51,037 bases of DNA from a virus. The stretch's first letter is position 1. Each line of letters begins with the position of its first letter. The stretch covers positions 1 through 51,037 of IMG/VR virus record IMGVR_UViG_3300036851_000137; one strand, given 5' to 3'. Position numbers and translations under genes: made by a program. Below are positions 151-36,907 of this stretch, piece after piece. The notes below the pieces were generated by a model. The model ran no database searches, was not told the DNA's origin, and worked only from the letters and a program-made list of their open reading frames with translations.

Positions 151-208
151 GATCTGTCTCCTGCATTTAAGGGGAATGCGCGCAAATGCACGCGGTGGTT
201 TCGACTTC

Positions 209-277: not shown

Positions 278-339
278 CTCGGGAGACCGGAAGCAGCAAT
301 TTAATAGACCGGCTTGCCGCTATGCCGGAACGCAGAAGA

Positions 340-1332: not shown

Positions 1333-1373
1333 AAATCCTCCTCATTGCGCTTCGCTCTCTCTGCGCTTGCGGA

Positions 1374-1574
1374 TCATAACCACCGGAAAAGCCGATCCAG
1401 AGCATCTTCAAGCGATATATTGACGTGACGATAGAACTTGTAGCTTTTTGCCGGCGTCCGCATCAATTCCAGCTTATAATCAGCTGTCTTAATTGTTGCT
1501 TTTGCTGAAATATCGTTAATATTGCCCGACATTAATGGTATCTGTTCCTTAACGATCAATTGCAAATGCCACAA
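1374..1574 (-). CDS. Small hypothetical protein with a problematic start
   Basis: From the TTG at 1574 it is 66 aa, but coding-like sequence continues upstream in frame (residues ILIVGGPHDGEWHNVAEG, codons 1628-1575), a segment resembling the opening of small phage proteins with a VGGPxDG motif. No ATG, GTG or TTG starts that segment. The best site is ATT at 1622, with AGGA 9 nt upstream; ATA at 1628 is the other choice. Either a rare start codon is used or a base has been lost. Function unknown. Confidence 0.5.
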   Translation of the reverse strand: MWHLQLIVKEQIPLMSGNINDISAKATIKTADYKLELMRTPAKSYKFYRHVNISLEDALDRLFRWL

Positions 1575-1689
1575 GCCTTCCGCAACGTTGTGCCACTCTC
1601 CGTCGTGAGGGCCGCCTACAATAAGTATATTTCCTGACTCATTACACCGCCGCCCCCTGCGCCTGTGACCTAGCCATCACTTATCCCCG

Positions 1690-2004
1690 TTATTCAATTC
1701 CGCCGCCAATATCGTCGAGAAGCGCAGCGCCGTCGGCGCGCAGCTTGCGGATATAGGCGCGGACATCAGCCATCAGTGCCGGATTTGCCCTGATCTGCCG
1801 GGCCTGTTCCAGCACATAGATAGCTTGCTGCGCGGCGCATTCGCGGGTGTGCTTCGCCATTTCCTCATTCGTCATAGCCCGAGGCTGACCAGCCGCGCCG
1901 CTCGCGTGTATGCCGTACGGGGTTAGCGGCAGCGGACATGCGTATTGCTGTGCCGCCCACCCAGAATCGCATGCCTGCTCGGTTTCAAAATAGTCACTAG
2001 CCAT
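1690..2004 (-). CDS. Hypothetical protein between portal and scaffold
   Basis: 104 aa from ATG 2004, preceded by GGAGGGTGAAA. The in-frame GTG at 2010 is too close to the Shine-Dalgarno to be preferred. The N-terminal third is rich in Cys, Tyr and Pro; the C-terminal half is a helical stretch (residues 45-95, EMAKHTRECAAQQAIYVLEQ and onward). No family recognised. It is co-directional with portal and scaffold, so a role in head assembly is possible but unsupported. Confidence 0.7.
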   Translation of the reverse strand: MASDYFETEQACDSGWAAQQYACPLPLTPYGIHASGAAGQPRAMTNEEMAKHTRECAAQQAIYVLEQARQIRANPALMADVRAYIRKLRADGAALLDDIGGGIE

Positions 2005-2020
2005 TTTCACCCTCCATGAA

Positions 2021-4141: not shown

Positions 4142-4367
4142 CGGTGGCACTCACCAATTTCCGCGTAGCGAATGCGACCGCTGGAGAGAGTTGGTTGACG
4201 CGAACATCGCGCGGCAGGCGCACCCTCTCAATATCACCGTGACAATGCGCCACAAAGGTCAACTCATCCTCCGCTTCGTTTCTATAAGCAACCAACTCAT
4301 CAACCGGACGGTCACAGATTGCGCAACGCGGACGAAGGGCATTTAAAATCGCCAGATGGTCAGCCAT
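4134..4367 (-). CDS. Small protein with Cys/His metal-binding motif
   Basis: 77 aa from ATG 4367. CAICDRP at residues 16-22 and HCHG near residue 45 would form a four-ligand zinc site; the spacing resembles a family of small phage CxxC...CHG proteins of unknown role. The gene starts and ends inside the octamer ATGGCTGA: its ATG overlaps the upstream stop and its TGA overlaps the portal start. In-frame ATGs further upstream lie within the preceding gene and are not needed. Confidence 0.75.
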   Translation of the reverse strand: MADHLAILNALRPRCAICDRPVDELVAYRNEAEDELTFVAHCHGDIERVRLPRDVRVNQLSPAVAFATRKLVSATDG

Positions 4368-4521
4368 CGGCGCCATCACGTATCAAAAATTCGCGAAACG
4401 AGCGTTCTAAATCAGCTTCCGCCTTGTCGAAATCGCTATCAAATCGCTTATCCGCAATCATCCCGTCTTGCAGGTTCTCGTAAAGCGCCGACACACAAAG
4501 GAGAACGTCGCCGTCAGCCAT
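4360..4521 (-). CDS. 53-aa hypothetical protein
   Basis: Starts at ATG 4521 in an ATGGCTGA overlap and ends in another at 4360. The product is acidic and helical (DSDFDKAEADLERSFREFLI). The open frame extends upstream to 4587, but that part lies over the end of the preceding frameshifted gene, so the shorter start is preferred. No family recognised. It is one member of a run of five coupled genes upstream of the portal gene. Confidence 0.65.
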   Translation of the reverse strand: MADGDVLLCVSALYENLQDGMIADKRFDSDFDKAEADLERSFREFLIRDGADG

Positions 4522-4761
4522 CGGACCACCAGCACTGCGTTGCCTGCCCTGGACGCGACCGCCAATGTGTCGGCCGCTCATCATCCCCTAAATATCTACC
4601 CGCTGCGATTTCCACCCACTGACCATGAGATCTTCAACCCAGCAGCAAGCAGACGCCAAGCGACTAGTGCCTAGCCGCTCGTCAATCACGAAAAGATCGA
4701 TCACCGTCCCATCGGCTGGCGCTGCCTCGATTGGCCACCGACGCTGCACCACGTCAGCCAT
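4514..4761 (-). pseudogene. W-P-I-x-APKDG (DUF551-like) protein, frameshifted
   Basis: ATG 4761 opens a frame with RRWPIEAAPADGTVIDL that stops at TAG 4588. The -1 frame over the same stretch reads GQWVEIAAGRYLGDDERPTHW and ends at TGA 4514 inside the next ATGGCTGA overlap. Family members, including the intact copy at 27094-27363, start with W-x-P-I-x-[AS]-APKDG and end with PTHW-x-P-x-P, so both halves belong together. The frame change must fall between about 4610 and 4590. The total is 248 nt, one short of whole codons, as expected for a single-base loss. I see no convincing slippery heptamer, so mutation or a sequencing error is more likely than programmed frameshifting. Confidence 0.7.
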
Positions 4762-4927
4762 TCGGCAGCCTCAAGTCCGGGCCGCGCCACCCTTCGTTGT
4801 AGAGACGTTTCCATGCCTCCCAATAATCGATGCCGCGATCGCGATACATTTCTACAATTATGTCGCGATACTGCGCACGACCAACAGGGAGATAGAAATC
4901 ACCAGCCGGCAGAACGAACTCAGCCAT
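4754..4927 (-). CDS. 57-aa hypothetical protein
   Basis: ATG 4927 and TGA 4754 both lie in ATGGCTGA overlaps with neighbours. The protein starts MAEFVLPAGDFYLPVGRAQY and ends in a helix containing DYWEAWKRLYNEGWRGPD. The compact, aromatic-rich sequence and clean coupling support a real gene below usual length cut-offs. No family recognised. Confidence 0.7.
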   Translation of the reverse strand: MAEFVLPAGDFYLPVGRAQYRDIIVEMYRDRGIDYWEAWKRLYNEGWRGPDLRLPNG

Positions 4928-5273
4928 CTTTCATCCCATACCGCGCCCAGCGCCCGCGCAACCCCGTCCCCTGAAGCTGCCGCTCCGGCGTCAGGATCAG
5001 CCCGCTACCGTTCCCGAAATGCGCCTTCCGCGCCGCTTTGAACTGCTCGGCAATCTCGTCGATCTCCTCGATCAAATGCCCATGCTCAAACGGGATCGGC
5101 AGATCAAACCGACTCATCGTGATCGGGCCATCGTCGATCGTCGCCACCAGTCCGACCGCGATATGATGCAGCCCCTTACCGAACTTGATGTCACAAATCT
5201 TAACGCCCAGCTCAAGATCGAGCCGTTTCATGATCGCATTTCTGATTGTCGGGGTATCTTCGTCAGTCAGCAT
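4920..5273 (-). CDS. 117-aa conserved-type hypothetical protein
   Basis: ATG 5273 lies two bases past the terminase stop. A longer frame (to 5438) would run across the terminase 3' end and is rejected. Sequence MLTDEDTPTIRNAIMKRLDL leads into a beta-rich core (KICDIKFGKGLHHIAVGLVA) and a helical C-terminus. The final DG-stop is in the first of five ATGGCTGA overlaps. No Shine-Dalgarno is evident, so coupling to terminase translation is likely. Function unknown. Confidence 0.7.
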   Translation of the reverse strand: MLTDEDTPTIRNAIMKRLDLELGVKICDIKFGKGLHHIAVGLVATIDDGPITMSRFDLPIPFEHGHLIEEIDEIAEQFKAARKAHFGNGSGLILTPERQLQGTGLRGRWARYGMKDG

Positions 5274-5274
5274 G

Positions 5275-7548
5275 CTACGCCGCCCACTGCGACCGCCCTC
5301 GGCGCGGCGGATGCGCCCGCGTATACCGATCCCCCGCCTGCACCGCAGCGCGGGGCCACACCGTCTCAATATCGAATATCCGCGACAGCATATCGAGCAT
5401 GTCATCGTGCGCCGGCACCGGGAACGCCCGATACTCATCGTTCAGGAACGACTGCACCAGATCATACCACTTCCCCTCATAGTCCACCTTACCGCACGTT
5501 TCCGGCAAGTACATCCGCCCCTGCTCGAACGTCGGCACCAGCCGCTTGATCCGATCCGGCTTCGGCATCTGCCCGCCAACCTTCGTGATCTCGAAATGGT
5601 AGTTTTCGCGCCGCATCCGATCCCGGAAATATTCGATATCCGCCATCAAACCATACGACTCGTACCCAACCCCCATCGGCTTCCACCGACGATGCAGAGC
5701 GAACAACGCATCGCCTCGTTCGGTCAGGTTCAACCGATCCCGCACTAGATCAAGAATGTAATAATTGTTGTCTGACCCCAACCCCACAACCCCAAGCGCC
5801 GTATAATCGCTATTCTTCTTTTTCTCGCTCGCCGCATCGCCGAGAATGTACTTGTTCATCGCCGAGCCATCGCCCGGCTCTTGATGATACCGCAGCCAGT
5901 CTTCCTTGAAACCCTGCGCGTGGCCGGCGGTCGGATTTAGGAGCATTTGGCTGTTCTTCGATAGCAGTCCATACGCGATATAATTCCCCGTTCCCGTTTC
6001 TATCCCAAAAACCGGGACGGTTGACTTCGCTTCCGCCGCCACCACCCTCACATGCCTTGACCGACGACCACGCAGCACGACGCGCTCCATGATCCGCCGT
6101 GCCTTTACCGGGCGACAAAAGCGCACGAAATCTATTTTCGCTTGGCGGCCGTCGTTGAGGTAGTAAGTTCTCCCCGCCTTATGGTTGCGACCAGCATAAA
6201 CCCCAGCCGCTCGTTCGTGTGTCCCATAAGGTAAATTGAGAACATCAAAGGCGTTTTCTATCGCTTCGCATATCTCGGGGTTATGCTCAGGGGATTGCGA
6301 GATACAAAGCGCCCCACCTGATGTCGTGCCTTCGCCATCGTATATTCCGCCCAACCATGCAGCAGAGCGCTCATCAGGGCACGGACGCGGTTCATACAGG
6401 CGATTTACGATTTTACGCCCGTGGTAATTACTCAACCCAAGTGCAGAATACAGCGACCGGCCATCCTCTTTCCGCCCGGTAAACCATTTGTGATCGACGG
6501 TGCATTCTATCTTGAAGCCGTCCGCCAGTTCGTATGCGACAATCTGCTTTTCCCCGATACAACCTGCCGCCTTCACCTCAGTAGCAATATATTTCCCGCG
6601 AGCCGGATAGTCGCAAATAGTAAACCCCACCACCCGATCACCCGCCTCAATTTTACCAATTGGCTTTTCACTGCCATCAGCCATCAGAATTGGCGCGTCA
6701 GCCGGCAAACATCCAAACGTATACGGCCCCATCATCCTGCGTTTCTCCGCGAGTGATTCCCGCGTCAAAAATACAGGTTCGCCGTCTTCAGTGCCATCAA
6801 TCGTTGCCGCATGCCGTCGCTCAATCGCAGCGCCTCGCTCGATAATTGTTTTGTACAAGTCCGCGTGGTGCCATCTCGTGCCCGTATAGCCGCGCTCGCC
6901 GCCCTCCGCCAACAACGCCAGCGAAGTCTCCCATGACCGTACCACCTTCGCTATCATCTCGGGTGTCGTGACACTCTCGGCAGTCACCGCGTCGTCGTAC
7001 TTGATCTTGCGAAAATGCTTCGATGTAGGCTGGGCATCGACCAATCCCCACGCCTCGATAGTGGACTCTTTCGGATTGCCTCTACGATTAACTATGATGC
7101 CATCATCCTCTGACCATTTCGGCGCATCGCGCTGCGGATTCTCCCATATGGTCTCGGGGAATAGTACGCGCAGCTTCGCGTTAGCTTCAAATTCACGTTT
7201 GATTTGGCGTAAGAACTGTTTGGCAATCGGTCGAGTGACCGACATTATGCAAAGCGTATCCTCGGGATCGCGCAGAATTTCTTGAATTGTATGGCCGAAG
7301 GTCGCGATGGTCGATTTGTAGTGGTCACGCGCCCATAGGTCCACATACCCATATGGGTCTTTTTCAAATTCTCGGCACCGCGCAAACAACCAATCGTGAT
7401 TAACATCAACCCGCCCGAGCGCCACCGTCAGCAGGTAGAACAAATCTCTGCGACACAGCGTCCGTTCGGCTTCCCACTCCAACCCCTCGCGCGCCGCTGA
7501 CCCGAGATAGAGTTTGTACCACGCGATTGCGTGCTCACGCGGCGTCAA
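5275..7548 (-). CDS. Terminase large subunit with in-frame intein
   Basis: 757 aa from a TTG start (7548) that overlaps the upstream TGA; GGAGG lies 9 nt before it. N-extein residues 1-279 hold the ATPase, with Walker-A-like ARDHYKST near residue 73. The C-extein holds the RNase-H-type nuclease (ILGDAAS and NSDYTALGVVG). Residues 280-532 are an intein; removing it restores GPYTFG-SQMLLNPTAG, a typical terminase motif. The spliced product is 504 aa, normal for the family. The enzyme cuts concatemers and pumps DNA into the procapsid. It lies beside the small subunit and portal, as expected. The non-ATG start and overlap suggest coupling to the gene before it. Confidence 0.92.
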   Translation of the reverse strand: MTPREHAIAWYKLYLGSAAREGLEWEAERTLCRRDLFYLLTVALGRVDVNHDWLFARCREFEKDPYGYVDLWARDHYKSTIATFGHTIQEILRDPEDTLCIMSVTRPIAKQFLRQIKREFEANAKLRVLFPETIWENPQRDAPKWSEDDGIIVNRRGNPKESTIEAWGLVDAQPTSKHFRKIKYDDAVTAESVTTPEMIAKVVRSWETSLALLAEGGERGYTGTRWHHADLYKTIIERGAAIERRHAATIDGTEDGEPVFLTRESLAEKRRMMGPYTFGCLPADAPILMADGSEKPIGKIEAGDRVVGFTICDYPARGKYIATEVKAAGCIGEKQIVAYELADGFKIECTVDHKWFTGRKEDGRSLYSALGLSNYHGRKIVNRLYEPRPCPDERSAAWLGGIYDGEGTTSGGALCISQSPEHNPEICEAIENAFDVLNLPYGTHERAAGVYAGRNHKAGRTYYLNDGRQAKIDFVRFCRPVKARRIMERVVLRGRRSRHVRVVAAEAKSTVPVFGIETGTGNYIAYGLLSKNSQMLLNPTAGHAQGFKEDWLRYHQEPGDGSAMNKYILGDAASEKKKNSDYTALGVVGLGSDNNYYILDLVRDRLNLTERGDALFALHRRWKPMGVGYESYGLMADIEYFRDRMRRENYHFEITKVGGQMPKPDRIKRLVPTFEQGRMYLPETCGKVDYEGKWYDLVQSFLNDEYRAFPVPAHDDMLDMLSRIFDIETVWPRAAVQAGDRYTRAHPPRRGRSQWAA
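5953..6711 (-). mobile_element. Intein with LAGLIDADG homing endonuclease in the large terminase
   Basis: 253 aa. It begins with Cys (CLPADAPILMADGSEKPI, the N-terminal splicing block), has a B-block-like CTVDHKWF, and ends VPVFGIETGTGNYIAYGLLSKN followed by Ser of the C-extein. A single LAGLIDADG-type motif (AAWLGGIYDGEGT) lies in the middle and marks a homing endonuclease. Cys1, the terminal Asn and Ser+1 fit class 1 splicing. The penultimate residue is Lys rather than the usual His, which is known in some active inteins but may slow splicing. The insertion is in the conserved stretch just before the QMLLNP motif. Confidence 0.92.
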
Positions 7549-7973
7549 CCTCGCGGCGCCTCCGCGCTCTGCTCCTGCTGCGCCTTCGCCGTCTCGATCT
7601 CGTCCATCAGCCGCCGCTCGCGCCAGCGCAGATCAACGTCAATCCCCAAATCCTGTGCTTGATCGCGAAGATCATTGAGCGCTGGCAGGGCGTCAACCTC
7701 GTGCCGTAACGCCTCACTCTCGGCTAATGCTCGCGCCGACGCCGTGCCACCGGCCGGCGACGCTACCGCTGCCTGAGGTGCTGGCAACGGCGGGATCTGC
7801 TTAACCGGAGGCGGCGTCAAGTAAGCATGAGCCTCCACCACGGCGAGGATGATTTCGTCAAAGCTCGCCCCGACCACGTTGCGACGCACCGCCGACGACC
7901 CGCCCCCGCCCTCGACCTCGGCAACCCACTTGCCGGGGCCAATCTGCTCGATTTCGACACGGGTTAGCGGCAT
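7545..7973 (-). CDS. Hypothetical protein with SAP/Rho-N-like C-terminus
   Basis: 142 aa from ATG 7973, in a TGATG overlap with the upstream gene and with GGGGAG before it; the longer frame to 8003 is not needed. An N-terminal beta segment (VEIEQIGPGKWVAEVEG) is followed by a Pro/Ala linker. The C-terminal 40 residues (LRDQAQDLGIDVDLRWRERR) resemble the helix-extended-loop-helix fold of SAP or Rho-N domains, which bind nucleic acid. It lies directly before the large terminase, so a packaging-accessory role is plausible. Confidence 0.7.
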   Translation of the reverse strand: MPLTRVEIEQIGPGKWVAEVEGGGGSSAVRRNVVGASFDEIILAVVEAHAYLTPPPVKQIPPLPAPQAAVASPAGGTASARALAESEALRHEVDALPALNDLRDQAQDLGIDVDLRWRERRLMDEIETAKAQQEQSAEAPRG

Positions 7974-8164
7974 CAGGCATCTCCCCACCGCTCCGGGGCG
8001 CACATCGATTGCCCCTCAAGAAATGCGATCTCGCGTTTGTCACGCATCACCGCCTCGGTGTAGACGCGCCATGTGCTATATGTCACATCTTCAGGCAGGG
8101 GTACGTTGTGCAAACGCAGATATTCGTCCACCTGCTTCTGCGACACGGATGCCCAATAACTCAT
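7973..8164 (-). CDS. 63-aa hypothetical protein
   Basis: ATG 8164 (MSYWASVSQKQVDEYLRLHN) to TGA 7973, overlapping the next start by TGATG. It follows the 58-aa gene by 4 nt. Mostly helical, with no recognised domain. The upstream extension in the same frame covers the neighbouring small gene and is rejected. Confidence 0.65.
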   Translation of the reverse strand: MSYWASVSQKQVDEYLRLHNVPLPEDVTYSTWRVYTEAVMRDKREIAFLEGQSMCAPERWGDA

Positions 8165-8168
8165 GGCT

Positions 8169-8345
8169 TTAGCGACCCCTCTTCTTGCTCGCCAGCATCC
8201 GCTTCGGCTTGATGATCCCGGTTCCCGCATCTGCACGGTTGAACTCCTGCGCCGTCTTTACCGGCACGCCAACCCGCTTCGCGAACTTTGGATCATGGGC
8301 AGCGGTAGCCATCATACGCGCCATCTTCGGGGATTTGGACGGCAT
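8169..8345 (-). CDS. Small basic phage protein (MPSKSPKMAR type)
   Basis: 58 aa, strongly basic. It starts MPSKSPKMARMMATAAHDPK, continues FAKRVGVP, and ends in a Lys/Arg-rich tail (KPKRMLASKKRGR). Small proteins with this SPKxARxMAxxAHxPxFAKxVGVP pattern recur next to terminase genes in proteobacterial phages. Their role is not established; the charge suggests DNA or RNA contact. ATG 8345 and TAA 8169. Confidence 0.8.
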   Translation of the reverse strand: MPSKSPKMARMMATAAHDPKFAKRVGVPVKTAQEFNRADAGTGIIKPKRMLASKKRGR

Positions 8346-8400
8346 TGCTCACCCACCTATTCCATCGCAGCATTCCGTGTCCGCTTTTGTATTTCGTTTG

Positions 8401-8904
8401 TCAAGCGGAAACGCGCCGAGCCAGCACTCCAAGCGCGGCAATCAGCACACCCGACGCCTCGTTGACCGAGCCGCGCCGGAACTCCATCACCCACCGCCGC
8501 AGCGACCATTCTTCCCCCAGCACATGCCACGCGCAACTCGCCGCCGGTGCCCGTCCACCTCCGAGCGCATCAATTGCCGCCATCACCGCCTTGCGCGCCG
8601 CTTCGTTGCCGTTGACGTGCGCGATATTCGACCCACCGCCTGCCCCCATCAGCGACGCCGCCTGCAGCCCATCGAGTTGCGCCAGCCGGAACCGATCGTG
8701 AAATTCCTCTCCCGCCGAGCGCATCTCCAGCGTGATCGCCCCACGCCGTCGCATCCCCTCCAGCAGCGGCACCACCCGCCACGGTGTGGCGACCTGGCCC
8801 GCGTCGTCGATCAACTCGCGACCCTCGACGCGCTCAATCAGATCATGCCGATAGCGCGCCCGTGTCGGCGCAATCGCCAGCGGATCACCGCGCGCCGCCC
8901 TCAC
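8401..8904 (-). CDS. DUF6456-like hypothetical protein
   Basis: 167 aa from a GTG at 8904 that overlaps the stop of the small terminase gene by GTGA. The core EEFHDRFRLAQLDGLQAASL, then VMAAIDALGG, SCAWHVLGEEWSLRRW and a helix with SGVLIAALGVLARR, resembles alphaproteobacterial DUF6456 proteins, some of which carry helix-turn-helix DNA-binding parts. The family call is from pattern memory only. Coupling to the small terminase suggests a role in packaging or late control. Confidence 0.6.
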   Translation of the reverse strand: MRAARGDPLAIAPTRARYRHDLIERVEGRELIDDAGQVATPWRVVPLLEGMRRRGAITLEMRSAGEEFHDRFRLAQLDGLQAASLMGAGGGSNIAHVNGNEAARKAVMAAIDALGGGRAPAASCAWHVLGEEWSLRRWVMEFRRGSVNEASGVLIAALGVLARRVSA

Positions 8905-9422
8905 TTCGACACATCCTCCGGCTTCGGCAGCGCCTTGAACGCATCATCGATCAGCGCCTCCGCACGAGCCTGGCGCTCGGCCCGCTCCGCTGGCGTCAGC
9001 ACCGCAAGCTCGACAGGACCGCCGCCCGCGCCGACATGCTCGTTTACAAGTCTATCCCCGTATTTCTTCGGCAGCATCTTGGACATCAGCCATTTGCGGG
9101 TGTCTGCCCGAAGCCTTGAACGCTGTATATGCTCGTGATCGGGAAGTTCTATTCCCTCCCGCTCGTACCAATCATTTGCGCCGTCATCAGCGATTTCTAC
9201 AAGCTCGTCCGCGAATTTCTCTGCCTGCACTTCGCGCGCGCGTGCGTACTGTGCGGCGAAGTCGTTGCTATGTCGCACCCAATCAGTAATCGCGCTGGCT
9301 TCACAGTCCAGTTCTTTGGCGATCTGGCGCAACGTGAAGCCATCTGCGATTTTGGAGCAGATAAACTCAGCGGTGGCTGGGTTGCGAATACGGGCAGTAG
9401 CGGGGTTTGGTGGGCGGCTCAT
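8901..9422 (-). CDS. Terminase small subunit
   Basis: 173 aa from ATG 9422 (MSRPPNPATARI); a GTG at 9443 is possible but has no ribosome site. Residues 20-55 hold a helix-turn-helix (ICSKIADGFTLRQIAKELDC, then SAITDWVRHSN). The helical oligomerisation part contains EKFADELVEIADDG and RLRADTRKWLMSKMLPKKYG, a signature of phage small terminases. It recognises packaging sites and hands DNA to the large subunit. A TTGACA at 9457-9462 (minus strand) may be its -35 box, with a weak -10. An inverted repeat array lies just upstream (9536-9642). Confidence 0.85.
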   Translation of the reverse strand: MSRPPNPATARIRNPATAEFICSKIADGFTLRQIAKELDCEASAITDWVRHSNDFAAQYARAREVQAEKFADELVEIADDGANDWYEREGIELPDHEHIQRSRLRADTRKWLMSKMLPKKYGDRLVNEHVGAGGGPVELAVLTPAERAERQARAEALIDDAFKALPKPEDVSK

Positions 9423-9535
9423 TGCGACGTTGGGCAATTTCACATTTCGGGTCCGGTGTCAAGGGGGTTGAGCGGGTGCCATTACAGGTTGCACCGGCGG
9501 ATGGGTTCGCAGTCCTCTGTACAAAAAATCCGGCT

Positions 9536-9642
9536 GGGTGACATGGGTGACATGGGTGACATGGATTTCGGTATTTTGTCTATAACGCGCATATAAAGCG
9601 AGTTTTGAAGATATCATGTCACCTCATGTCACCTTGTCACCC
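9536..9642. repeat. Iteron-like repeats arranged as an inverted repeat; candidate origin or packaging site
   Basis: The left arm (9536-9564) is three tandem GGGTGACAT units with an exact 9-bp period. The right arm (9613-9642) is CATGTCACCT twice plus TGTCACCC, the same units inverted. Between them are 48 bp, mostly A/T (TATTTTG, TATAAC, ATATAAAG). The array fills the 230-bp gap between the helicase and small terminase genes, which otherwise holds no gene. Iterons next to an AT-rich stretch beside replication genes fit an origin; the position before the small terminase fits a packaging recognition site. Confidence 0.75.
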
Positions 9643-9653
9643 GTCAGCATTGC

Positions 9654-11570
9654 TTACCTATTATAGGGGTCAGAGTAGGGGTCGCTGGTCTCGGGTTTAG
9701 GTTTCCATTCTTCCTTTAAATCCAAGCCCAAGCGGGACCAAACACCCTTCGCGCCACGGTGTGTTGCGAAGCCTTTTTCGTTCAGTTTTCCGCCGAATGT
9801 AGAACGCGATAGTTGTGTTTGCCCGGTCTCTGTACACCACTTTGTGTACACATCATACAGAGTATCCACACGGCACGAATAGGTATTTTGTATTTCTGTA
9901 CAGTCGGAGAGGAACCCGGCGACCAAATCCTGCTCGTAACGATACTGGCTCGTAGCGTTTTCTACGGCAACCGGCAGTTGTAATCCAATATCTTGCCAGT
10001 CGAGGCAGCCGCGCACGATCCATGCAAGGATTCCCGGCAATTCGGTCTGTAGGGTGTCTTTGAGGAGATCATCCTTGACTGGCTGCCCGAGGAGCGCCTT
10101 GTCGGGATCTAGGAATGTAACGAGGAAGGGGAGGAGGCGGATGCGGCGCCAGATGCCGTGATCGGTGCCGCGGATTTGCGGCTTGTGATTGGTCGCGAGC
10201 CAGAGCTTGAACTTTGGTGTGAATTCGAAAAATTCGTGGTGTAGGTAGCGGGCTGCCATCCGATCGCCGCCGGTAGCCTGCTTGATCAGGCTTTCGGCAA
10301 GGCGGTGTTCCTGATCGGTCTCGACGACGGAGACGAGGCGAGCGCCAGCGAGGCGTGCAATGTCGTTGGATATACCGCTACCGCCCTTGTCCTTTGCCGT
10401 GAAGGTATCGGATGGGCATTGGCGGGTGTAGTCGTCGAGTATGGCAGCGACGGTTTCGAGAAGGACGGATTTGCCGTTCGAGCCGGAGCCATGAAGGATA
10501 AAAATCACATGCTCGCGCGTGATGCCGGTCATTGAATAGCCGAGGGCGCGCTGGGTGAACGCGACCATTTCTGGATCATCGGCGAAGATCCCCGCGACGA
10601 AGCTATCCCAGGTCGGGCATAGCGCATCGGGATTGAAGACGACGGGCGACAGCTTGGTTATCAGATCGACTTGGGCATGGGCGCGGATGTTGCCGGAGCG
10701 TAGGTCGATTGTCCCGTTCAAGACGTTGAACAGCCACGGATCTTTATCGAGATCGTCGGCGGTGAGTGCCAAGTGTGGTTCAGCTTGGGACATCATCCCA
10801 GCGATACGGGCTGAATACCCCGAGCTGATCGCCCATTTTGCGCGAGCTTCTTGGGCTTTTGGATCAGCGAGAAATGCGACCTCGGCGAAGATGGCTTTCG
10901 CAGTTAGATGAGCGAAGCGTTTGACCGCGACCTCACCCTCATCAATCTTCCAGCGGCGCCCATCCCATGCATACCACCCGACGTTGACGACGTAGCGGAG
11001 CCGATCACCGAATTGATTGATGAGCCGCTGCGCGTTGCCGATGTCGTTCTGCTCGAATTGAGCCAGGTCGATCGCGGCTTCGGCGTTGTCTGGCAGGATT
11101 TCGCCGGTTTCTTGATCGTAGTGTCCGCTACCATTAGGGCGATGTTCATCGCGACGGCCGATGCGGGATATATCGAATGGCTGGGCTATGCCTGCAGTTA
11201 GGCCGCTGGCGATCGTCGCGCGGACCGCCTGCGGACCTTCGCGCCATAGCCCACAATCGGCACTTGCAGCCTCAAGAGTTTGCTCGACGGCGGCACGGGA
11301 GAGCACGCCGGCCCCGACGAAATGCCCGAGCGCCAGGGCTGCATTGTTGAGCGTCGCGTTGCGCGACCCTTCTCTCGCTGCGGCTACGCGTCGCTGCTCG
11401 TTTCGCAGGGCTGCGTCAACGTATCTGCCGATCAACTCGCTGTTATCACGATTGGTCTGGCGTGTAGGCGATGGCGGAGGTGCAGGAGGGTCTGGCCTCT
11501 TGACGATCAGGTCAATCAGCCATTCGGCGCAGGGTTGCGGCTTGTCAGTGGATTCCCGTTCCGCTGACAT
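9654..11570 (-). CDS. D5-type replicative helicase (SF3 family)
   Basis: 638 aa from ATG 11570, with AGGA 7 nt upstream; the frame is open to 11624. Residues 40-100 look like a primase C-terminal helical domain. The D5_N part includes PWLFNVLNGTIDLRSGNIR. The superfamily-3 AAA core has Walker A HGSGSNGKSV, Walker B RLVSVVETD and a sensor KLWLATNHKPQIRGTDHGIW with an arginine finger region WRRIRLLPF. The C-terminal 90 residues form a winged-helix-like segment. It unwinds DNA at the phage origin with the primase-polymerase encoded just upstream. In many phages the two are one polypeptide; here they are separate overlapping frames. Confidence 0.88.
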   Translation of the reverse strand: MSAERESTDKPQPCAEWLIDLIVKRPDPPAPPPSPTRQTNRDNSELIGRYVDAALRNEQRRVAAAREGSRNATLNNAALALGHFVGAGVLSRAAVEQTLEAASADCGLWREGPQAVRATIASGLTAGIAQPFDISRIGRRDEHRPNGSGHYDQETGEILPDNAEAAIDLAQFEQNDIGNAQRLINQFGDRLRYVVNVGWYAWDGRRWKIDEGEVAVKRFAHLTAKAIFAEVAFLADPKAQEARAKWAISSGYSARIAGMMSQAEPHLALTADDLDKDPWLFNVLNGTIDLRSGNIRAHAQVDLITKLSPVVFNPDALCPTWDSFVAGIFADDPEMVAFTQRALGYSMTGITREHVIFILHGSGSNGKSVLLETVAAILDDYTRQCPSDTFTAKDKGGSGISNDIARLAGARLVSVVETDQEHRLAESLIKQATGGDRMAARYLHHEFFEFTPKFKLWLATNHKPQIRGTDHGIWRRIRLLPFLVTFLDPDKALLGQPVKDDLLKDTLQTELPGILAWIVRGCLDWQDIGLQLPVAVENATSQYRYEQDLVAGFLSDCTEIQNTYSCRVDTLYDVYTKWCTETGQTQLSRSTFGGKLNEKGFATHRGAKGVWSRLGLDLKEEWKPKPETSDPYSDPYNR

Positions 11571-16364: not shown

Positions 16365-16682
16365 ATGGCAAAGCTAAAATGGGTGCCGGGACCGTGGCTG
16401 GCGCGTGATAACGGAGTATGCTGGCAGATAGATGCCGCGCAAGACGCTGTGGCAACGACGCAATTTTGCTACGCTCGCGAGACTGCTGCCAACGCCCGCC
16501 TGATCGCCGCCGCGCCCGAGCTTTACGAGGCGCTATCCAAACTGGCTAACGAGGTGGCCGGAATTTGCGAGTTGGCAGAAGCGGCGATCCGCGAGGGCGC
16601 CGGGCACACGAATTATTCGGTACTCTGGCAGCGTCAAGCCGAAGCCACGCTGGCCCTCGCCAAAGCTAGAGGCGAGCCATGA
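16365..16682 (+). CDS. WTPGPW-type phage protein
   Basis: 105 aa. The opening MAKLKWVPGPWLARDNGVCW and the block AANARLIAAAPELYEALSKL mark a widespread phage family of unknown function. A second copy lies at 30245-30556; both end ALAKARGEP and both overlap the next gene by ATGA, so they look like duplicated cassettes. A TTATCGGTAAGGG leader precedes it. Confidence 0.85.
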   Translation: MAKLKWVPGPWLARDNGVCWQIDAAQDAVATTQFCYARETAANARLIAAAPELYEALSKLANEVAGICELAEAAIREGAGHTNYSVLWQRQAEATLALAKARGEP

Positions 16683-18267: not shown

Positions 18268-19026
18268 ATGCGCGCTGTGATATTCGATATAGACGGTACC
18301 CTCGCGGATGCTAGCCATCGGCTGCACCACGTCACCGGTGGCAACCGAAATTGGGATGCGTTCTTCGCTGCGATGGGCGATGATCCTGTTGTTGAGCCGA
18401 TCCGAGACCTGTTGAATAGCATCACGCGCGGAAGTGATAACCCTATCGTCTTGTGTTCGGGGCGCCCCGAGAATTATCGGGACATAACTGAGGACTGGCT
18501 GCGCCGCCATCAGATCTCGTGGGCTGCTCTCTATATGCGTCCCGAAGGTGATCATCGCGCCGATCACATTGTTAAGGCCCAGTTGCTCACGGGGATGCGC
18601 GGGGATGGATTTGAGCCTTGGATCGCCGTTGATGATCGCCCGAGCATCGTAGCGATGTGGCGCGAGAACGGTATCACCTGCCTGCAATGTCGCGATTGGG
18701 ATGACCGCCACGCGAACCCGGCCAAGACCACGCCTGGACTTTTGACAATAATGGTCGGCCCTAGCGGCGGCGGGAAGACGACGTGGCTGCGCAGTGCGCA
18801 CGCGCTATTCCGAGGAATCGAGCCTCGACACGTCGTCAGCAGCGACGAAATCCGCGAAGATCTGTGCGGCGATTTCCGGTCGCAGGAACGCAACGATGAG
18901 GTGTTTGCCGCACTTCACGCGATCGTGAAGACGCGCCTCGCACGAGGAGATCATTTGTTGCGATTGTCTCAGCAAAGGCGACTGACGTTAATACGCTTTC
19001 TGAGTAAGGAATCGCCCATTGACTGA
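18268..19026 (+). CDS. Polynucleotide 3'-phosphatase/5'-kinase, kinase domain truncated
   Basis: 252 aa. The N-terminal HAD phosphatase begins MRAVIFDIDGTLADASHR (DxDGT nucleophile), with CSGRPENYRDITEDWL and IAVDDRPSIVAMW. From about residue 157 a P-loop kinase starts (IMVGPSGGGKTTW), followed by VVSSDEIREDLCGDFRSQER and EVFAALHAIVKTRLARGDH. Family kinases then continue through a VVDATN block and lid for about 100 residues; here the frame ends in an unrelated LLRLSQQRRLTLIR tail. The 5'-kinase is therefore probably inactive, while the 3'-phosphatase looks complete. It would pair with the RNA ligase at 27855 in RNA repair. Confidence 0.85.
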   Translation: MRAVIFDIDGTLADASHRLHHVTGGNRNWDAFFAAMGDDPVVEPIRDLLNSITRGSDNPIVLCSGRPENYRDITEDWLRRHQISWAALYMRPEGDHRADHIVKAQLLTGMRGDGFEPWIAVDDRPSIVAMWRENGITCLQCRDWDDRHANPAKTTPGLLTIMVGPSGGGKTTWLRSAHALFRGIEPRHVVSSDEIREDLCGDFRSQERNDEVFAALHAIVKTRLARGDHLLRLSQQRRLTLIRFLSKESPID

Positions 19027-20770: not shown

Positions 20771-20808
20771 CAGTGTAGCACCTGACCCTTAATGTTTGTT
20801 ATGAGCAA

Positions 20809-21631
20809 TTATACGCCGCAGATGCCTTCGCACTCGTTGTTGAACAAATCGCCTTGCCCGCGCTCCGCATCTGACCTGATGTCGGCGTGTTCGAGAGGGA
20901 CAAGACTGCGGTGCAAAAACAATTCGCTCCGCGTCTTGCTGAAACCGGGGCGGGATAAGGCGATCAACCGCAATGGCGTCCTCCCACTCCGCAGGATTCT
21001 GGCGGATCTGTCGCCAATGCTCATTCGAGTGGTACGGGCAACCGATGCACGAGCTTTTGGCTGGCGTGGGGAACCCGTTGCGCTCCATCCAAAGGAGGCA
21101 GTCGCTGCGGCTTAGGCGTTTCTCAATAAGCGGCCAGCGTCGCTCAATCCACGCGAGCGGCCCTGGCTTGACGCGGTAGATTTCATCCATCGAAATGCCG
21201 ATCCACATTTCGATCTGCGGTGTTTTCGGTTGCCGTTGGCGCGGCTTGATCCCGAGCTTTTCCTTCATCCGGCGCTCGATGGGTTCGATCTTGTAATGAC
21301 CCGTGCATTGCCTTCGGAGCGGAGCCGCAACCCCTCCCTTTCCCGCGACGAAGAATGGCGCCGTCGCCGCTCGGCCTTGCCCTCGGATAGCCTCGCCACG
21401 GGCCAATTTGTCGATGTCCTCGCGAATGTTGCCCTGCCTGACGATTTCAATGGGGAACGGTAGGACATTTGGCGACATGAGCCAGCGGAGGTGATCGTAA
21501 ACCGTCGCGGGTTCCCATCCCGTATCGGCGAAGATGGCGCAATCCGGCATTGGTCCTATCTCACCCGCCGCCGCCATGAGGGCAAGCGTGGTCGATTGGA
21601 CGCCGGCGCCTAGCGATAGGATGCGGAGCAT
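20809..21631 (-). pseudogene. PAPS-reductase-like PP-loop protein, frameshifted near its C-terminus
   Basis: ATG 21631 with TTAAGGG upstream. The PP-loop region MLRILSLGAGVQSTTLALMA, then FADTGWEPATVYDHL, RRQCTGHYKIEPI and SSCIGCPYHSNEHWRQIR, matches phage proteins of the phosphoadenosine-phosphosulfate reductase family. After AIAVDRLI the frame runs into Arg-rich junk and stops at 20789. The +1 frame instead continues FSKTRSELFLHRSLVPLEHA and ends FNNECEGICGV at TAA 20809, the normal family terminus. One extra C in the CCC run at 20952-20954 (GGG on the plus strand) explains it. Mutation or a sequencing error is likely; programmed +1 frameshifting is not excluded. Confidence 0.8.
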
Positions 21632-22563: not shown

Positions 22564-22785
22564 TCAACTAATTGGAACGTGAACGGCCTTGCGTGGGTCG
22601 CCCATCAATCGGCGCAATTCATCATTCGGATGATCCGCAGGTTCTGCTAACCCCCGTTCGATCAGATACCGCATCGCTGCCGCCCGCGTCGGAGGCACCG
22701 TCTGCCGCTGCCGCCACTCATCCACGCGGGCTAGAAGCTCCGGCGCAATCAGCATCTCAAAACGATTTTCTCTCATGCCCGGCAT
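22564..22785 (-). CDS. Ribbon-helix-helix repressor
   Basis: 73 aa from ATG 22785 or 70 aa from ATG 22776. The MRENRFEMLIAPELLARVDE strand and WRQRQTVPPTRAAAMRYLIE helix pair is a CopG/Arc-type RHH domain; RGLAEP follows. A paralogue-like protein (DEWRSGQLVPPSKASAIRCL) is encoded at 36734-36907. The divergent intergenic region carries dyads CGGAA-TT-TTCCG and TACGG-N6-CCGTA that it may bind. The candidate minus-strand -10 (TATCAT) reaches the start codon, so the transcript could be leaderless. Confidence 0.8.
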   Translation of the reverse strand: MPGMRENRFEMLIAPELLARVDEWRQRQTVPPTRAAAMRYLIERGLAEPADHPNDELRRLMGDPRKAVHVPIS

Positions 22786-22787
22786 GA

Positions 22788-22840
22788 TACGGAATTTTCC
22801 GGTTGACGCAAGCCAAAAATCTGCTACGGTACATTCCGTA
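22788..22840 (+). promoter_or_regulatory. Promoter and operator dyads between the RHH gene and 22918 gene
   Basis: Plus strand: TTGACG (22803-22808), 16-bp spacer, TACGGT (22825-22830). Dyad 1 is CGGAATTTTCCG (22790-22801). Dyad 2 is TACGGTACATTCCGTA (22825-22840), covering the -10 box. Inverted octamers TACGGAAT (22788-22795) and ATTCCGTA (22833-22840) link the two. The arrangement fits repression of both divergent genes by the RHH protein. Confidence 0.6.
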
Positions 22841-22917
22841 ACGTCATCAGAATGGCACGGCACACACGGGAGTAGCCTTGCACTGAATGGCATAGACTTC
22901 AGCGGAAAGGCTCAACG

Positions 22918-27854: not shown

Positions 27855-28397
27855 TTAGCGCTTGATACCGAAATCACGACCTTTGATCTTTGCCATTCGA
27901 CCATCGGGATGATGCCATACCACCCCTTCGTAATCGTGCCAAGCAAGCCACGCTGCCAAACCATCGTAATCCCGAGGAACATTAGTCAATCGCAAACCAA
28001 AAGAATCATGTGCAACCAACTGATGCGTATCCCACTTCTCGGGGTTGCCCTGCACTTTGGGGCCGACCAATTCATAAGTCCCATCAAGAATCGGCAACGA
28101 TGCCTCGCGATGATACCGATCCTCTGGGCCATCACCGACTGGCACCCAGCCAACTGTATTCTTCGTTTCCTCATCGAGCCCAGCAGGCTCAAAGCCCACA
28201 GGGGGAACCTCGCCAGCGCGCAACTCACGCCGCTTGAACAGCTTATTATCGCGAATTAAGCAGCAAGTGCCGTCCAACTTTCGTGTTGGGGCACCTTCAC
28301 CGGCGATTACCCATTCACATCCTTCATGCACAGAGCGCGTAACACGGCTACGGTCGCCGTTCCAGTCGCGTTCAAAAAGTGTCGGGATTTTTTGCAT
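27855..28397 (-). CDS. RNA ligase, DUF5565 family
   Basis: 180 aa. Nucleotidyl-transfer motif I is RKLDGTCCLIRDNKLFKR (Lys nucleophile near residue 40). GWVPVGDGPEDRYHREA and DGTYELVGPKVQGNPEKW give the middle motifs. DYEGVVWHHPDGRMAKIKGR carries motif IV and the paired lysines of motif V. This is the complete set for a small ATP-dependent RNA ligase of the DUF5565 type. It would seal ends healed by the PNK-type protein at 18268, countering host tRNA-cleaving defences. RBS lies in ATTAAGGACATTC. Confidence 0.88.
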   Translation of the reverse strand: MQKIPTLFERDWNGDRSRVTRSVHEGCEWVIAGEGAPTRKLDGTCCLIRDNKLFKRRELRAGEVPPVGFEPAGLDEETKNTVGWVPVGDGPEDRYHREASLPILDGTYELVGPKVQGNPEKWDTHQLVAHDSFGLRLTNVPRDYDGLAAWLAWHDYEGVVWHHPDGRMAKIKGRDFGIKR

Positions 28398-28600: not shown

Positions 28601-28878
28601 CAGTGCGCTCCCATGCTGGCGCGAATTCTGGCTTTCATATCGGGAAGCAGTTTCTCCCAGCGAGCCCGCAGTTCGCCAGGATCGCTTTCGTGTCCCATTT
28701 CGTGTGGTTTTGCGGGCGCATCGTGATAATCAGCGATACCAGCCTCTTCCAGTACCCGGATAACCGACCTTGATTGCAGCAATTGTTTGGTGTCTCTGGC
28801 GATGATCCGTTTGATCATGTCGACAGAAAAGCCACGATTGCCTAGAGCGGTAATCGCGAGAGCTAGGTCTTTGTTCAT
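28600..28878 (-). CDS. 92-aa hypothetical protein
   Basis: ATG 28878 in a TGATG overlap; the longer frame to 29157 runs antisense-free over the zinc-finger gene in another frame and is rejected. MNKDLALAITALGNRGFSVD and MIKRIIARDTKQLLQSRSVI suggest two short helix bundles, perhaps DNA-binding. A Trp-containing terminal helix ends ARIRASMGAH. Function unknown. Confidence 0.65.
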   Translation of the reverse strand: MNKDLALAITALGNRGFSVDMIKRIIARDTKQLLQSRSVIRVLEEAGIADYHDAPAKPHEMGHESDPGELRARWEKLLPDMKARIRASMGAH

Positions 28879-29354
28879 CACGCCACCCCCGCCGTGTATG
28901 CCGCCGAGCAGCCGGTGTAACTGCGAGCGTCGGCTCGAACGATCTTGAACCCGAAGCCGCCATCGCGCGGGGTAATCTCGTGCGCCGAGAAGTCGGCCTC
29001 GATCGGCCCCATCACCTTGGGCCATTGCAACTCGCGCTCGCCGTCGAAATACCCGTCGCACTTCATCGCTGCCGAGAAGCCACGGCACTGACGCCGGCCG
29101 CATGTCTTGCGCCGGGAGCGGTTCGCTGCAATGTGGACCGGCTTGCCGCAAGCGCACAAGCCAGCGGCGGCGCGACGGCTCAGCTCGGCCTCGTCGATCC
29201 CGTAGATCCGCATCGCGCGCTCGACTAGGCGTTTATGCCCCAGCTTCACACCGCAGGATACGTCGCAAGTCTCGCGGGCGTTGAACTTGCCTGCCCGCTC
29301 CCCCTCGCGTTGGACGAGCGGCTTGCCGCAATTGGCGCAGAGGCGGGCGGTCAT
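28878..29354 (-). CDS. Two-zinc-finger hypothetical protein
   Basis: 158 aa from ATG 29354 with GGAGAGGCCGC. Finger 1 is CANCGKPLVQREGERAGKFN with CDVSC; finger 2 is CACGKPVHIAANRSRRKTCG with RRQC. Between them is KRLVERAMRIYGIDEAELSR. The arrangement resembles recombination NinG-like or HNH-related zinc proteins, but no catalytic HNH residues are visible. It overlaps both neighbours, so it belongs to the regulator operon. Confidence 0.7.
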   Translation of the reverse strand: MTARLCANCGKPLVQREGERAGKFNARETCDVSCGVKLGHKRLVERAMRIYGIDEAELSRRAAAGLCACGKPVHIAANRSRRKTCGRRQCRGFSAAMKCDGYFDGERELQWPKVMGPIEADFSAHEITPRDGGFGFKIVRADARSYTGCSAAYTAGVA

Positions 29355-29602
29355 GCGGCCTCTCCCGGCGGCTGGGGATCAGTGGAGATGGTGCGTTTCG
29401 CGCGTATAAGACGGCCCAGAACATCGAAGCTGATGCCATCAATGCCTCGGCGCTGTGCGCCATCAACGACCCAATTCCAATAGGCGGCTGGAATCGTATC
29501 GCGGCTTTTCCACACAGCAACCAAAGCCGGGCTGACGCCGCAATCCTCAGCCAGTTTGGAGGGATGCGGCCATGCGTTGATGATTTCGGTGAAGCTCTGC
29601 AT
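29351..29602 (-). CDS. Cro/YdaS-like regulator of the divergent switch
   Basis: 83 aa from ATG 29602. HPSKLAEDCGVSPALVAVWK is the helix-turn-helix; SRDTIPAAYWNWVVDGAQRR and FDVLGRLIRAKR follow. There is no ribosome site, but a -10-like TATAGT (29612-29607) sits just upstream, so the message may begin at or near the ATG. Three operator dyads TTGCA-N3-TGCAA lie at 29613-29666, which makes autoregulation likely. The divergent gene starts at 29773. Confidence 0.82.
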   Translation of the reverse strand: MQSFTEIINAWPHPSKLAEDCGVSPALVAVWKSRDTIPAAYWNWVVDGAQRRGIDGISFDVLGRLIRAKRTISTDPQPPGEAA

Positions 29603-29612
29603 GGACACTATA

Positions 29613-29666
29613 TTGCACGGTGCAAAAAAAGATTGCAACGTGAAAAATATCTCTTGCAATCTGCAA
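29613..29666. promoter_or_regulatory. Three operators TTGCA-N3-TGCAA at about 20.5-bp spacing
   Basis: O1 TTGCACGGTGCAA (29613-29625), O2 TTGCAACGTGAAA (29633-29645, right arm one base off), O3 TTGCAATCTGCAA (29654-29666). Centres are 20 and 21 bp apart, two helical turns, so bound dimers would lie on the same face and could contact each other. The set fills the space beside the Cro-like gene and would act on leftward and rightward transcription, as in lambdoid switches. An imperfect GC-rich inverted repeat at about 29723-29762 follows on the rightward side. Confidence 0.85.
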
Positions 29667-29772
29667 TGCCCCGTGGCATCGTCTCCCCCGCCGCCGGTTC
29701 CGCCTTACCCTCCCAAGTGGGCGTCGCCGGTTCCCCTTTCCGGCAAGAGCCGGCGGCGACGGGAGAGAGATA

Positions 29773-30000
29773 ATGTCGATAGCCGATGATCTGGTCGCCA
29801 ACATCCGCGCCGGCAACGAGCTTTTCCTTGCCGGTGTCCAGGCAGCCGACGAGAACAGCCCGAGCGCGCGGAAGCTGGCGGCATTGATCGCCGACATTGA
29901 AGAAATATCAACCGATATTACGGCAGCAACTAAGAACCCCGCCATGATAGCACTGCGCAATCGATTGCGCTTCGCCATCGCCGAGGCTCGCAAGTCATGA
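29773..30000 (+). CDS. 75-aa helical hypothetical protein, first gene of the second rightward operon
   Basis: ATG 29773 with GGAGAGAGATA. It starts MSIADDLVANIRAGNELFLA and continues as an amphipathic helical protein (ARKLAALIADIEEISTDITA). It is the first gene across from the Cro-like regulator, so it is probably made early. No family recognised. Confidence 0.7.
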   Translation: MSIADDLVANIRAGNELFLAGVQAADENSPSARKLAALIADIEEISTDITAATKNPAMIALRNRLRFAIAEARKS

Positions 30001-30248
30001 CCAGCGACCGCCTCCGGGACGAGCGCGACTCAATCCAAGCGAAGATCGAAGCGCTGATGCTCCGGCGAGCGGCCCTCTCCGACGCGCTTATAACAGCGAC
30101 CACGCACGAACAAATTGACCGTGTGACGGAAGCCTTCGATGCGGATGGAGATAGGATCGCCGCGCTCGAAGCCGTGCTGGACGAGGCCGACGCTGCCGTT
30201 GCGCGGGACGATCCTGAGCGGCGTCTGTGGGGGCATGACGGGATATGA
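29997..30248 (+). CDS. 83-aa coiled-coil protein
   Basis: ATG 29997 overlaps the previous stop by ATGA. The sequence RDERDSIQAKIEALMLRRAA with DRIAALEAVLDEADAAVARD is heptad-like throughout. Its TGA overlaps the next start. Function unknown; such small coiled coils often bind a host or phage partner. Confidence 0.7.
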   Translation: MTSDRLRDERDSIQAKIEALMLRRAALSDALITATTHEQIDRVTEAFDADGDRIAALEAVLDEADAAVARDDPERRLWGHDGI

Positions 30249-30556
30249 GCAAACCAAAATGGACACCTGGGCCTTGGCCGGTTGTGCGAGAAGATTTGCG
30301 CGGCGGCTGCTATTGGTGCGGCGTCGTGATCCCTGGTCTGGAAGAGGGGTTTGCCCTGCACGCAGACGATAACGGCGAAGCCAATGCTCACCTGATCGCC
30401 GCCGCCCCGGATCTCTACGATGCACTACACAAGATCATCGAAGGGTCAGTTACGGTCGCAGCATCACCAGATACGGTGTCAGCTATTGAGGATCTGATGG
30501 AGCTGTTTCGCACTATTGGTCAACCCGCTCTTGCCAAAGCCCGAGGTGAGCCATGA
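30245..30556 (+). CDS. WTPGPW-type phage protein, second copy
   Basis: 103 aa. MSKPKWTPGPWPVVREDLRG with CYWCGVVIPG and ANAHLIAAAPDLYDALHKII. Same family as 16365-16682, and both end ALAKARGEP followed by an ATGACC overlap. This copy has a CYWC pair absent from the other. The role of the family is unknown. Confidence 0.85.
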   Translation: MSKPKWTPGPWPVVREDLRGGCYWCGVVIPGLEEGFALHADDNGEANAHLIAAAPDLYDALHKIIEGSVTVAASPDTVSAIEDLMELFRTIGQPALAKARGEP

Positions 30557-33408: not shown

Positions 33409-33820
33409 TATCGGTGCCCCTTCGGTTGTGGTGCCGAATTTGCTGTGCTAGAGCACCGCGATACGCGACGATGTTCTCCGGCACAACCTTTCGAGTAGTT
33501 GTGGATGTCGCTGCGTGCGCGATAAAAAGCTCGGCCTGCAAACTCTTGATTTTCAGGTAGGGAAGGCAGGCAGCCAAAATAATGGCCCCAGCCTGTGGCC
33601 CCACCTTCCAGACAAATTCCTGCTTCCATCGCAGCGGGCGCTTCCCCACTCTATGCACGCGGCCACCAAATGTCTGCTGTATCCAAAGCAACGCGCCCTC
33701 ATGGCTGTTGTAGACACAGCAAATCGGATGATCCCGGCCCCTGTGGGAAACGATCGTAACGGACCCCTCGCCGTCTATTAAGCCGGCCAAGTAGGCAAGG
33801 TCCGTCTCGGCCCAGTTCAT
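33395..33820 (-). CDS. LAGLIDADG homing endonuclease inserted at the Acb2 gene
   Basis: 141 aa with one LAGLIDADG motif (LAYLAGLIDGEGSVTIV, residues 8-24), so it would act as a dimer. GALLWIQQTFGGRVHRVGKR and WKQEFVWKVGPQAGAIILAA are the usual later blocks. ATG 33820 overlaps the Acb2 stop by ATGA; its TGA (33395) lies within the displaced Acb2 terminus. It is a free-standing mobile gene that brought a replacement 3' end for its target. Confidence 0.9.
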   Translation of the reverse strand: MNWAETDLAYLAGLIDGEGSVTIVSHRGRDHPICCVYNSHEGALLWIQQTFGGRVHRVGKRPLRWKQEFVWKVGPQAGAIILAACLPYLKIKSLQAELFIAHAATSTTTRKVVPENIVAYRGALAQQIRHHNRRGTDNEAA

Positions 33821-34038
33821 GATCTCGGAGACCCGTCAGGGTTCCTCGTAATTGCTTGGTTTGCCCACATACCGCAGTCGCGAAGCTGGCGCAGCAGGTA
33901 GGTTTTGTCGGGGCCGTCTGGTATCCAAGGTTCGATCGTGTCCGTAAACGCTTTGAATGCATCGCGTATTGCACCCATTGTGTTCATCTGTTCATCGGTG
34001 GGCTTGAGATATTGGAATGTCGAGTGATGCAGGGCCAT
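33817..34038 (-). CDS. Acb2/Tad1-type anti-CBASS protein homologue
   Basis: 73 aa from ATG 34038 with GGAGATCCG. FQYLKPTDEQMNTMGAIRDA, then IPDGPDKTYLLRQLRDCGMW and NQAITRNPDGSPRS. This matches the helical-hairpin family (DUF7681) annotated as Acb2/Tad1-like. Characterised Acb2 proteins form hexamers that sequester cyclic di- and trinucleotides made by CBASS, and some also bind Thoeris signals. The penultimate block differs from relatives (NQAITR instead of NIAVTR) because the 3' end was replaced during LAGLIDADG insertion. Whether it still binds nucleotides cannot be read from the sequence. Confidence 0.82.
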   Translation of the reverse strand: MALHHSTFQYLKPTDEQMNTMGAIRDAFKAFTDTIEPWIPDGPDKTYLLRQLRDCGMWANQAITRNPDGSPRS

Positions 34039-36329: not shown

Positions 36330-36664
36330 TTAGTGTCCTCTTCGCGAGCGACTGAACACATTATTTCAAAAATTTCCCCGGCTCCGCTTTCATATGAATC
36401 AAAACGGTTATCGTACCTGATAAGCTCTAACGCCCCTGCCTTGATCATCGGCGGGGTTGGCTTACGAGGCACGATTTCATAGCCCGCCTCGGCCAGCGCT
36501 GCCTCATATGCGTCAATTGCTGCACAACTCAGATACGGCCAAGCATCACCCAGCGATCCGACAAGTACGCGCTCCAAAGAATGTAAGTTAAAGAAAGGTT
36601 GTGCCGCACGTATCTTCATTGCCTTCGTCACTTTTTGCGCGATCATGCTTTCTGGATCACTCAT
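36326..36664 (-). CDS. 112-aa hypothetical protein
   Basis: ATG 36664 overlaps the micro-membrane gene stop by ATGA. MSDPESMIAQKVTKAMKIRA, then WPYLSCAAIDAYEAALAEAG and YEIVPRKPTPPMIKAGALEL. The YEIVPxxPTxxM block is frequent in phage-encoded small proteins with no known function. Ends in an acidic segment. Confidence 0.7.
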   Translation of the reverse strand: MSDPESMIAQKVTKAMKIRAAQPFFNLHSLERVLVGSLGDAWPYLSCAAIDAYEAALAEAGYEIVPRKPTPPMIKAGALELIRYDNRFDSYESGAGEIFEIMCSVAREEDTK

Positions 36665-36741
36665 CTTCCGAACACCGCAATTGCAACGATAAGCGCAAGC
36701 AGAAAGCCGACTCCGAGCACGGTTGCGTAGCCGTCACTCAT
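36661..36741 (-). CDS. 26-aa membrane peptide
   Basis: ATG 36741 within ATGAGTGA, overlapping the RHH stop by 8 nt. MSDGYATVLGVGFLLALIVA followed by IAVFGR: a single membrane helix. Tight coupling to genes on both sides supports translation. Function unknown. Confidence 0.5.
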   Translation of the reverse strand: MSDGYATVLGVGFLLALIVAIAVFGR

Positions 36742-36907
36742 CGTCAACCTCGAAAATCGGCACCGCTGTCGCAGCCATGCCCGCTTCCAGTAGGCACCGG
36801 ATCGCGGACGCTTTCGATGGCGGCACCAATTGCCCCGATCGCCACTCGTCAATCCGACGCAGCAGATCTTCGGGCACGCGCACGTCCAAGCGTTTGTCGT
36901 GTCTCAT
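36734..36907 (-). CDS. Ribbon-helix-helix repressor, autoregulated
   Basis: 57 aa from ATG 36907. MRHDKRLDVRVPEDLLRRID forms the strand and first helix; EWRSGQLVPPSKASAIRCLL is the second helix of an RHH domain. Closely similar in pattern to the protein at 22564. Its promoter and a 10-bp inverted repeat surround the start codon (36891-36942), so it most likely represses itself and the downstream lysis genes. Confidence 0.82.
   Translation of the reverse strand: MRHDKRLDVRVPEDLLRRIDEWRSGQLVPPSKASAIRCLLEAGMAATAVPIFEVDDE

Follow-up and report, generated by a model that had tools for sequence, protein, structure and literature searches.

A Cro-like gene beside three regularly spaced dyads: a candidate lambda-type switch for early genes in a phage that is probably virulent

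The window analysed here, a 51,037-base record from a phage of a podovirus-like group whose genome is incomplete by a few kb, carries three related dyads in the gap between a leftward gene for a Cro-like protein and a divergent rightward operon. We think it probable that this gap holds a lambda-type switch operated by Cro alone, which would provide autoregulated timing of early transcription in a phage that is probably virulent. The pairing of this protein with these sites is predicted from the sequence of the gap and its homologues.

Results

The dyad cluster

The genes and candidate operators at the boundary are as follows.

28878-29354, minus strand: gene that follows cro in its operon, for a 158-aa protein with a zinc-ribbon-like motif
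29351-29602, minus strand: cro-like gene for an 83-aa helix-turn-helix protein (weak repressor and CI helix-turn-helix matches, Cro-structure profile matches, fold)
29613-29625: O1, exact dyad TTGCACGGTGCAA, centred at -16.5; 10 bp separate its end from the cro ATG, and it falls within the spacer of the candidate cro promoter
29633-29645: O2, dyad TTGCAACGTGAAA with one mismatch; its cro-proximal half would form the candidate cro -35
29654-29666: O3, exact dyad TTGCAATCTGCAA, the most distant from cro and the closest to the rightward gene
29773-30000, plus strand: 75-aa protein, whose gene opens the divergent rightward operon

The dyads start 20 and 21 bp apart, which bears out the spacing of about two helical turns seen in the initial annotation. 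The same annotation had TTGCA-N3-TGCAA occurring three times: three dyads are indeed present, but the pattern is exact only at O1 and O3. No further match with up to one mismatch exists in the whole record, where chance would supply a mean of 1.47 genome-wide, and all three fall within 54 bp. Because the pattern had been chosen after looking, we added a pattern-free test for any 70-bp stretch containing three dyads (5-bp arms, gap 0-8 bp) whose arms agree and of which two or more are exact. It returned this cluster alone in the window and nothing when the entire record was dinucleotide-shuffled 60 times. The dyads might still have arisen by chance, or be a structural repeat belonging for example to a replication origin, and not serve as operators, and tandem TTGCA repeats do occur in 22 unrelated viral contigs. 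We regard this explanation as very improbable given the empty shuffles, the location in a divergent gene gap and the conservation of position in homologues described below; the cluster is real and well placed. The 22 contigs, retrieved with a DNA pattern for tandem dyads, contain mostly direct or low-complexity repeats and were rejected as relatives of the switch.

The Cro-like protein

The assignment of the 83-aa protein draws on several lines of evidence, each of them modest. Against curated libraries the matches were weak (PHROG 35 repressor, E=0.083; Phage_CI_repr, E=0.013), those to Pfam and PHROG lying below the cut-off. A six-member family profile matched the Cro structures XPH1 (5w8y, E=0.013), Xfaso 1 Cro (3bd1, E=0.027) and P22 Cro (1rzs, E=0.21), all with marginal E-values and through its N-terminal part; designed helical repeat proteins outscored them in the same search, through the C-terminal helices. 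The AlphaFold model has five helices (mean pLDDT 71, core over 80) in a lambda-repressor-like helix-turn-helix fold. Its best fold match is again Xfaso 1 Cro (3bd1), over 62 aligned residues at a Z of 6.4, which is under 8, and the top matches are Cro and c2 proteins, N15 Cro among them; the Foldseek E-values were above 0.5 (0.6). By gene order, cro is the first leftward gene at the gap and so the predicted first gene of an early lytic operon at a divergent boundary. Taken with this position and with the neighbourhoods of the homologues, which mostly lie opposite CI/LexA-type repressors, the predicted profile and fold matches make Cro-like a sound label, as the initial annotation had it.

Homologues and the position of the dyads

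No close homologue was found, the best reaching about 40% identity. A search of viral and genome contigs with the 83-aa protein gave no match, and a two-member profile recovered three viral loci and none in genomes. The relatives, at about 30-45% identity, belong to ctOK67 (Caudoviricetes sp., MW202613; 38% over 66 residues), Tetraselmis viridis virus S20/SI1, Microcystis phage Mwe-JY08, Rhodoplanes serenus plasmid 1, Azospirillum plasmids and three viral contigs, and the family occurs mostly in phages and plasmids of Alphaproteobacteria. At the nucleotide level, the 27-33 kb region matched nothing among phages, and an Rfam search returned nothing credible.

A CI/LexA-type repressor lies opposite the cro homologue at six of seven distinct loci (ctOK67, Mwe-JY08, the Rhodoplanes plasmid, Azospirillum, contig L131 and contigs L132/L133), the exception being S20/SI1; the window itself has no CI. 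The records of ctOK67, L131 and L133 also contain a tyrosine integrase, and Mwe-JY08 has a weaker match below the cut-off. In S20, as in the window, neither CI nor integrase was detected.

In a position test at eight loci, we took the best dyad within 40 bp upstream of the start codon; the presence of dyads there had a combined p of 3e-5. The centre of the proximal dyad lies 16.5 bp before the start in the window, 15.0 bp in ctOK67, 15.5 bp in Rhodoplanes, 16.5 bp in Azospirillum and, once its start had been corrected, 16.0 bp in L131; the best dyad does not follow this register in three of the eight loci (L103, L105 and L132). Thus, in these distant homologues the sequence of the dyad is not conserved and its position is kept in several. 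A proximal dyad at 15-16.5 bp in five loci, despite differing sequence, supports a cro promoter with an operator inside it and an mRNA almost without a leader.

These data also bear on the possibility that another factor, either a phage Arc/CopG-like ribbon-helix-helix protein or a host regulator, occupies the sites and that the Cro-like protein binds elsewhere. The phage does encode two similar Arc/CopG-like proteins of the repressor-like family phrog_4738, at 22.6 kb (22564-22893, minus strand) and 36.8 kb (36661-36852, minus strand), which are possibly further repressors, and proximity and homologues are what link the protein to the sites. Yet no such sites occur outside the cro gap, and their register is common to several cro homologues in unrelated elements, which makes this explanation improbable in our judgement.

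Candidate promoters and the leader hairpin

A strict consensus sigma-70 scan found no promoter, and candidates were therefore sought with a looser weight matrix built on approximate sigma-70 frequencies.

29607-29638, minus strand: candidate cro promoter from the looser matrix, with a similar -10 register in homologues
29682-29766, plus strand: GC-rich hairpin in the leader of the 75-aa gene, pairing the Shine-Dalgarno sequence GGGAGA (29761-29766)

The cro candidates, which score modestly, share a -35 of TTGCAA (29638-29633, minus strand) and differ in the -10, which is either CAATAT (29615-29610; spacer 17, ending 7 nt before the ATG) or TATAGT (29612-29607; spacer 20, ending 4 nt before the ATG). 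With this placement O1 would fall within the spacer and O2 over the -35, and the cro transcript would probably have no leader or almost none. The earlier proposal that transcription starts at or near the ATG gains support from the homologues, both in the position of the proximal dyad and in the -10 register: in ctOK67, S20, Mwe-JY08 and, with its start corrected, Azospirillum, a -10-like hexamer ends 6-8 nt ahead of the start codon, with a -35 box of the TTGAC- or TTGCA-type 17 bp upstream of it. A leaderless cro mRNA has been mapped in phage PY54 (PMC4488713).

No rightward promoter was recognisable in the window. The leader on that side (29657-29800) folds with an MFE of -61.4 kcal/mol (z -2.64), and its hairpin may be a second regulatory layer on the rightward operon.

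CI, integrase and lifestyle

Neither tyrosine integrase (PF00589) nor serine recombinase (PF00239) has a match in the record, with control genomes positive, which agrees with the earlier remark that the window shows no integrase; a few kb are missing from the record. Searches of the record for S24 peptidase (PF00717) and HTH_3 gave no match, and the CI proteins of the relatives found nothing in it better than E=0.36. No CI-like repressor was found opposite cro or anywhere else in the record. The place that CI takes in temperate relatives is occupied by the 75-aa gene, in whose product no helix-turn-helix was detected.

One could suppose that the phage nonetheless has a complete temperate switch, with CI and integrase unassembled or too diverged to detect and with the sites serving both CI and Cro. 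The homologues of this Cro are mostly paired with CI, an integrase is present in several of the phages concerned, and the record is a fragment: contig L084, 99.7% identical across window positions 1-10975, extends 1.57 kb (L084:10976-12550) beyond window base 1. Against this, the relatives have their CI directly opposite cro, where here there is a protein without a helix-turn-helix, and neither their CI proteins nor the integrase families have a credible match. The L084 extension of about 1.6 kb encodes capsid genes, the major capsid gene among them. In KLEP18-1, RHph_Y1_10 and G002, some 4 to 7 kb lie between capsid and the following shared tail gene, and this stretch contains no integrase. 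This synteny suggests that the rest of the missing segment is structural (capsid and tail), and it is unlikely that the few kb still missing encode an integrase or repressor. The search for an integrase beyond the window covers the gap in part, through the L084 capsid genes and the syntenic intervals.

A complete temperate switch is therefore an unlikely reading, and the suggestion that the phage is temperate with its integrase elsewhere is disfavoured; the other suggestion of the initial annotation, a switch that times two early operons, is better supported. Given the lack of integrase, recombinase and CI matches, the 75-aa gene opposite cro and the integrase-free syntenic interval, the phage is probably virulent. 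Most of the major capsid gene and the sequence beyond it are absent from the record at window base 1, the near-identical contig supplying 1.57 kb. By its portal, the nearest relative is G002 (55%), which is without this cro gene.

Other genes of the record

The leftward early operon contains cro, an RNA ligase and methyltransferases, with replication genes farther along the same strand; no relatives of the 158-aa neighbour were found. With the RNA ligase as search anchor we recovered 79 loci, none with the switch, so the ligase belongs to a mobile family, one that is widespread in viral contigs. The phage encodes both this ligase (27855-28397, minus strand) and a polynucleotide kinase (18268-19026, plus strand), which suggests an RNA repair pair. 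A 73-aa protein (33817-34038, minus strand) matches the Acb2/Tad1 hairpin family (PF24729, 34 bits, above the cut-off) and is likely to be an anti-CBASS/anti-Thoeris nucleotide sponge. Two small phrog_1273 proteins are encoded at 16365-16682 and 30245-30556 (both plus strand), and local DNA repeats are common to about 16.5 and 30.4 kb, at these genes. A PAPS reductase-like gene (phrog_424) lies at 20789-21631 (minus strand); a PAPS reductase is annotated in Rhizobium phage RHph_I3_18 too.

Discussion

We infer that the 83-aa protein binds the three TTGCA-N3-TGCAA sites, most likely as a dimer, between the cro gene and the divergent rightward operon. Leftward early transcription would produce Cro, which on accumulating would fill O1, between the -35 and -10, and O2, overlapping the -35, and so shut the leftward promoter and repress its own early operon. 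Filling of O3 would also repress or damp the rightward early operon. With no CI, such a circuit would provide negative feedback and timing rather than a decision between lysis and lysogeny, and the phage probably could not lysogenise.

The immR region (OR) of lambda and P22 resembles the window in its small helix-turn-helix Cro-like protein, divergent units and three similar dyad operators, and here too three related candidate operators lie between divergent promoters, themselves predicted. The window differs in having no CI (no divergent cI gene) and no integrase found, and in its 13-bp dyads 20-21 bp apart. The lambda OR sites are 17 bp long with centres about 23-24 bp apart. The lambda-type geometry read into this region earlier therefore stands as regards three dyads in a divergent gap, whereas the spacing is similar rather than the same.

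Among the systems with a homologous Cro, ctOK67 and Rhodoplanes serenus plasmid 1 share the distance from dyad to start codon with the window, but these two and Mwe-JY08 keep a CI/LexA-like repressor opposite, ctOK67 has an integrase as well, and the operator sequences of the group differ from those of the window (e.g. CGCTACAAATGTAGCG). S20/SI1 is a further parallel, with its homologous Cro at a divergent early-gene boundary and neither CI nor integrase detected; there, however, the opposite gene encodes a 391-aa protein (as annotated) of the RecT operon, and one visible dyad, GAGTCAACACGTTGACTC, lies over the -35 in place of three sites. The PY54/N15 switch, which has CI, combines a leaderless cro mRNA, as predicted for the window, with palindromic operators between cI and cro; PY54 Cro acts through just one operator, adjacent to cI, and presumably does not repress its own gene (PMC4488713). 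The closest precedent is found in virulent Streptococcus thermophilus phages, dairy streptococcal phages that also keep cro-like genes without an integrase, which has been taken to suggest prophage descent (PMC5338259 and references therein); the likeness to the window drawn here is one of gene content.

A more tentative idea, which we regard as possible but rather doubtful, is that the three-operator array was retained after loss of CI and integrase, is more regular than in temperate relatives, and lets Cro alone, perhaps with the Shine-Dalgarno-sequestering hairpin, act as a two-sided early timer. If true, the switch would have been turned from a decision maker into a clock.

Virulent phages with a cro-like gene and no integrase are already known, and this phage adds one more. 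It offers a compact natural case of the role that Cro and multiple operators may have when no CI competes, and, together with its homologues, it adds predicted operator-protein pairs, the same in position and different in sequence, from which the recognition rules of a little-studied Cro family may be read.
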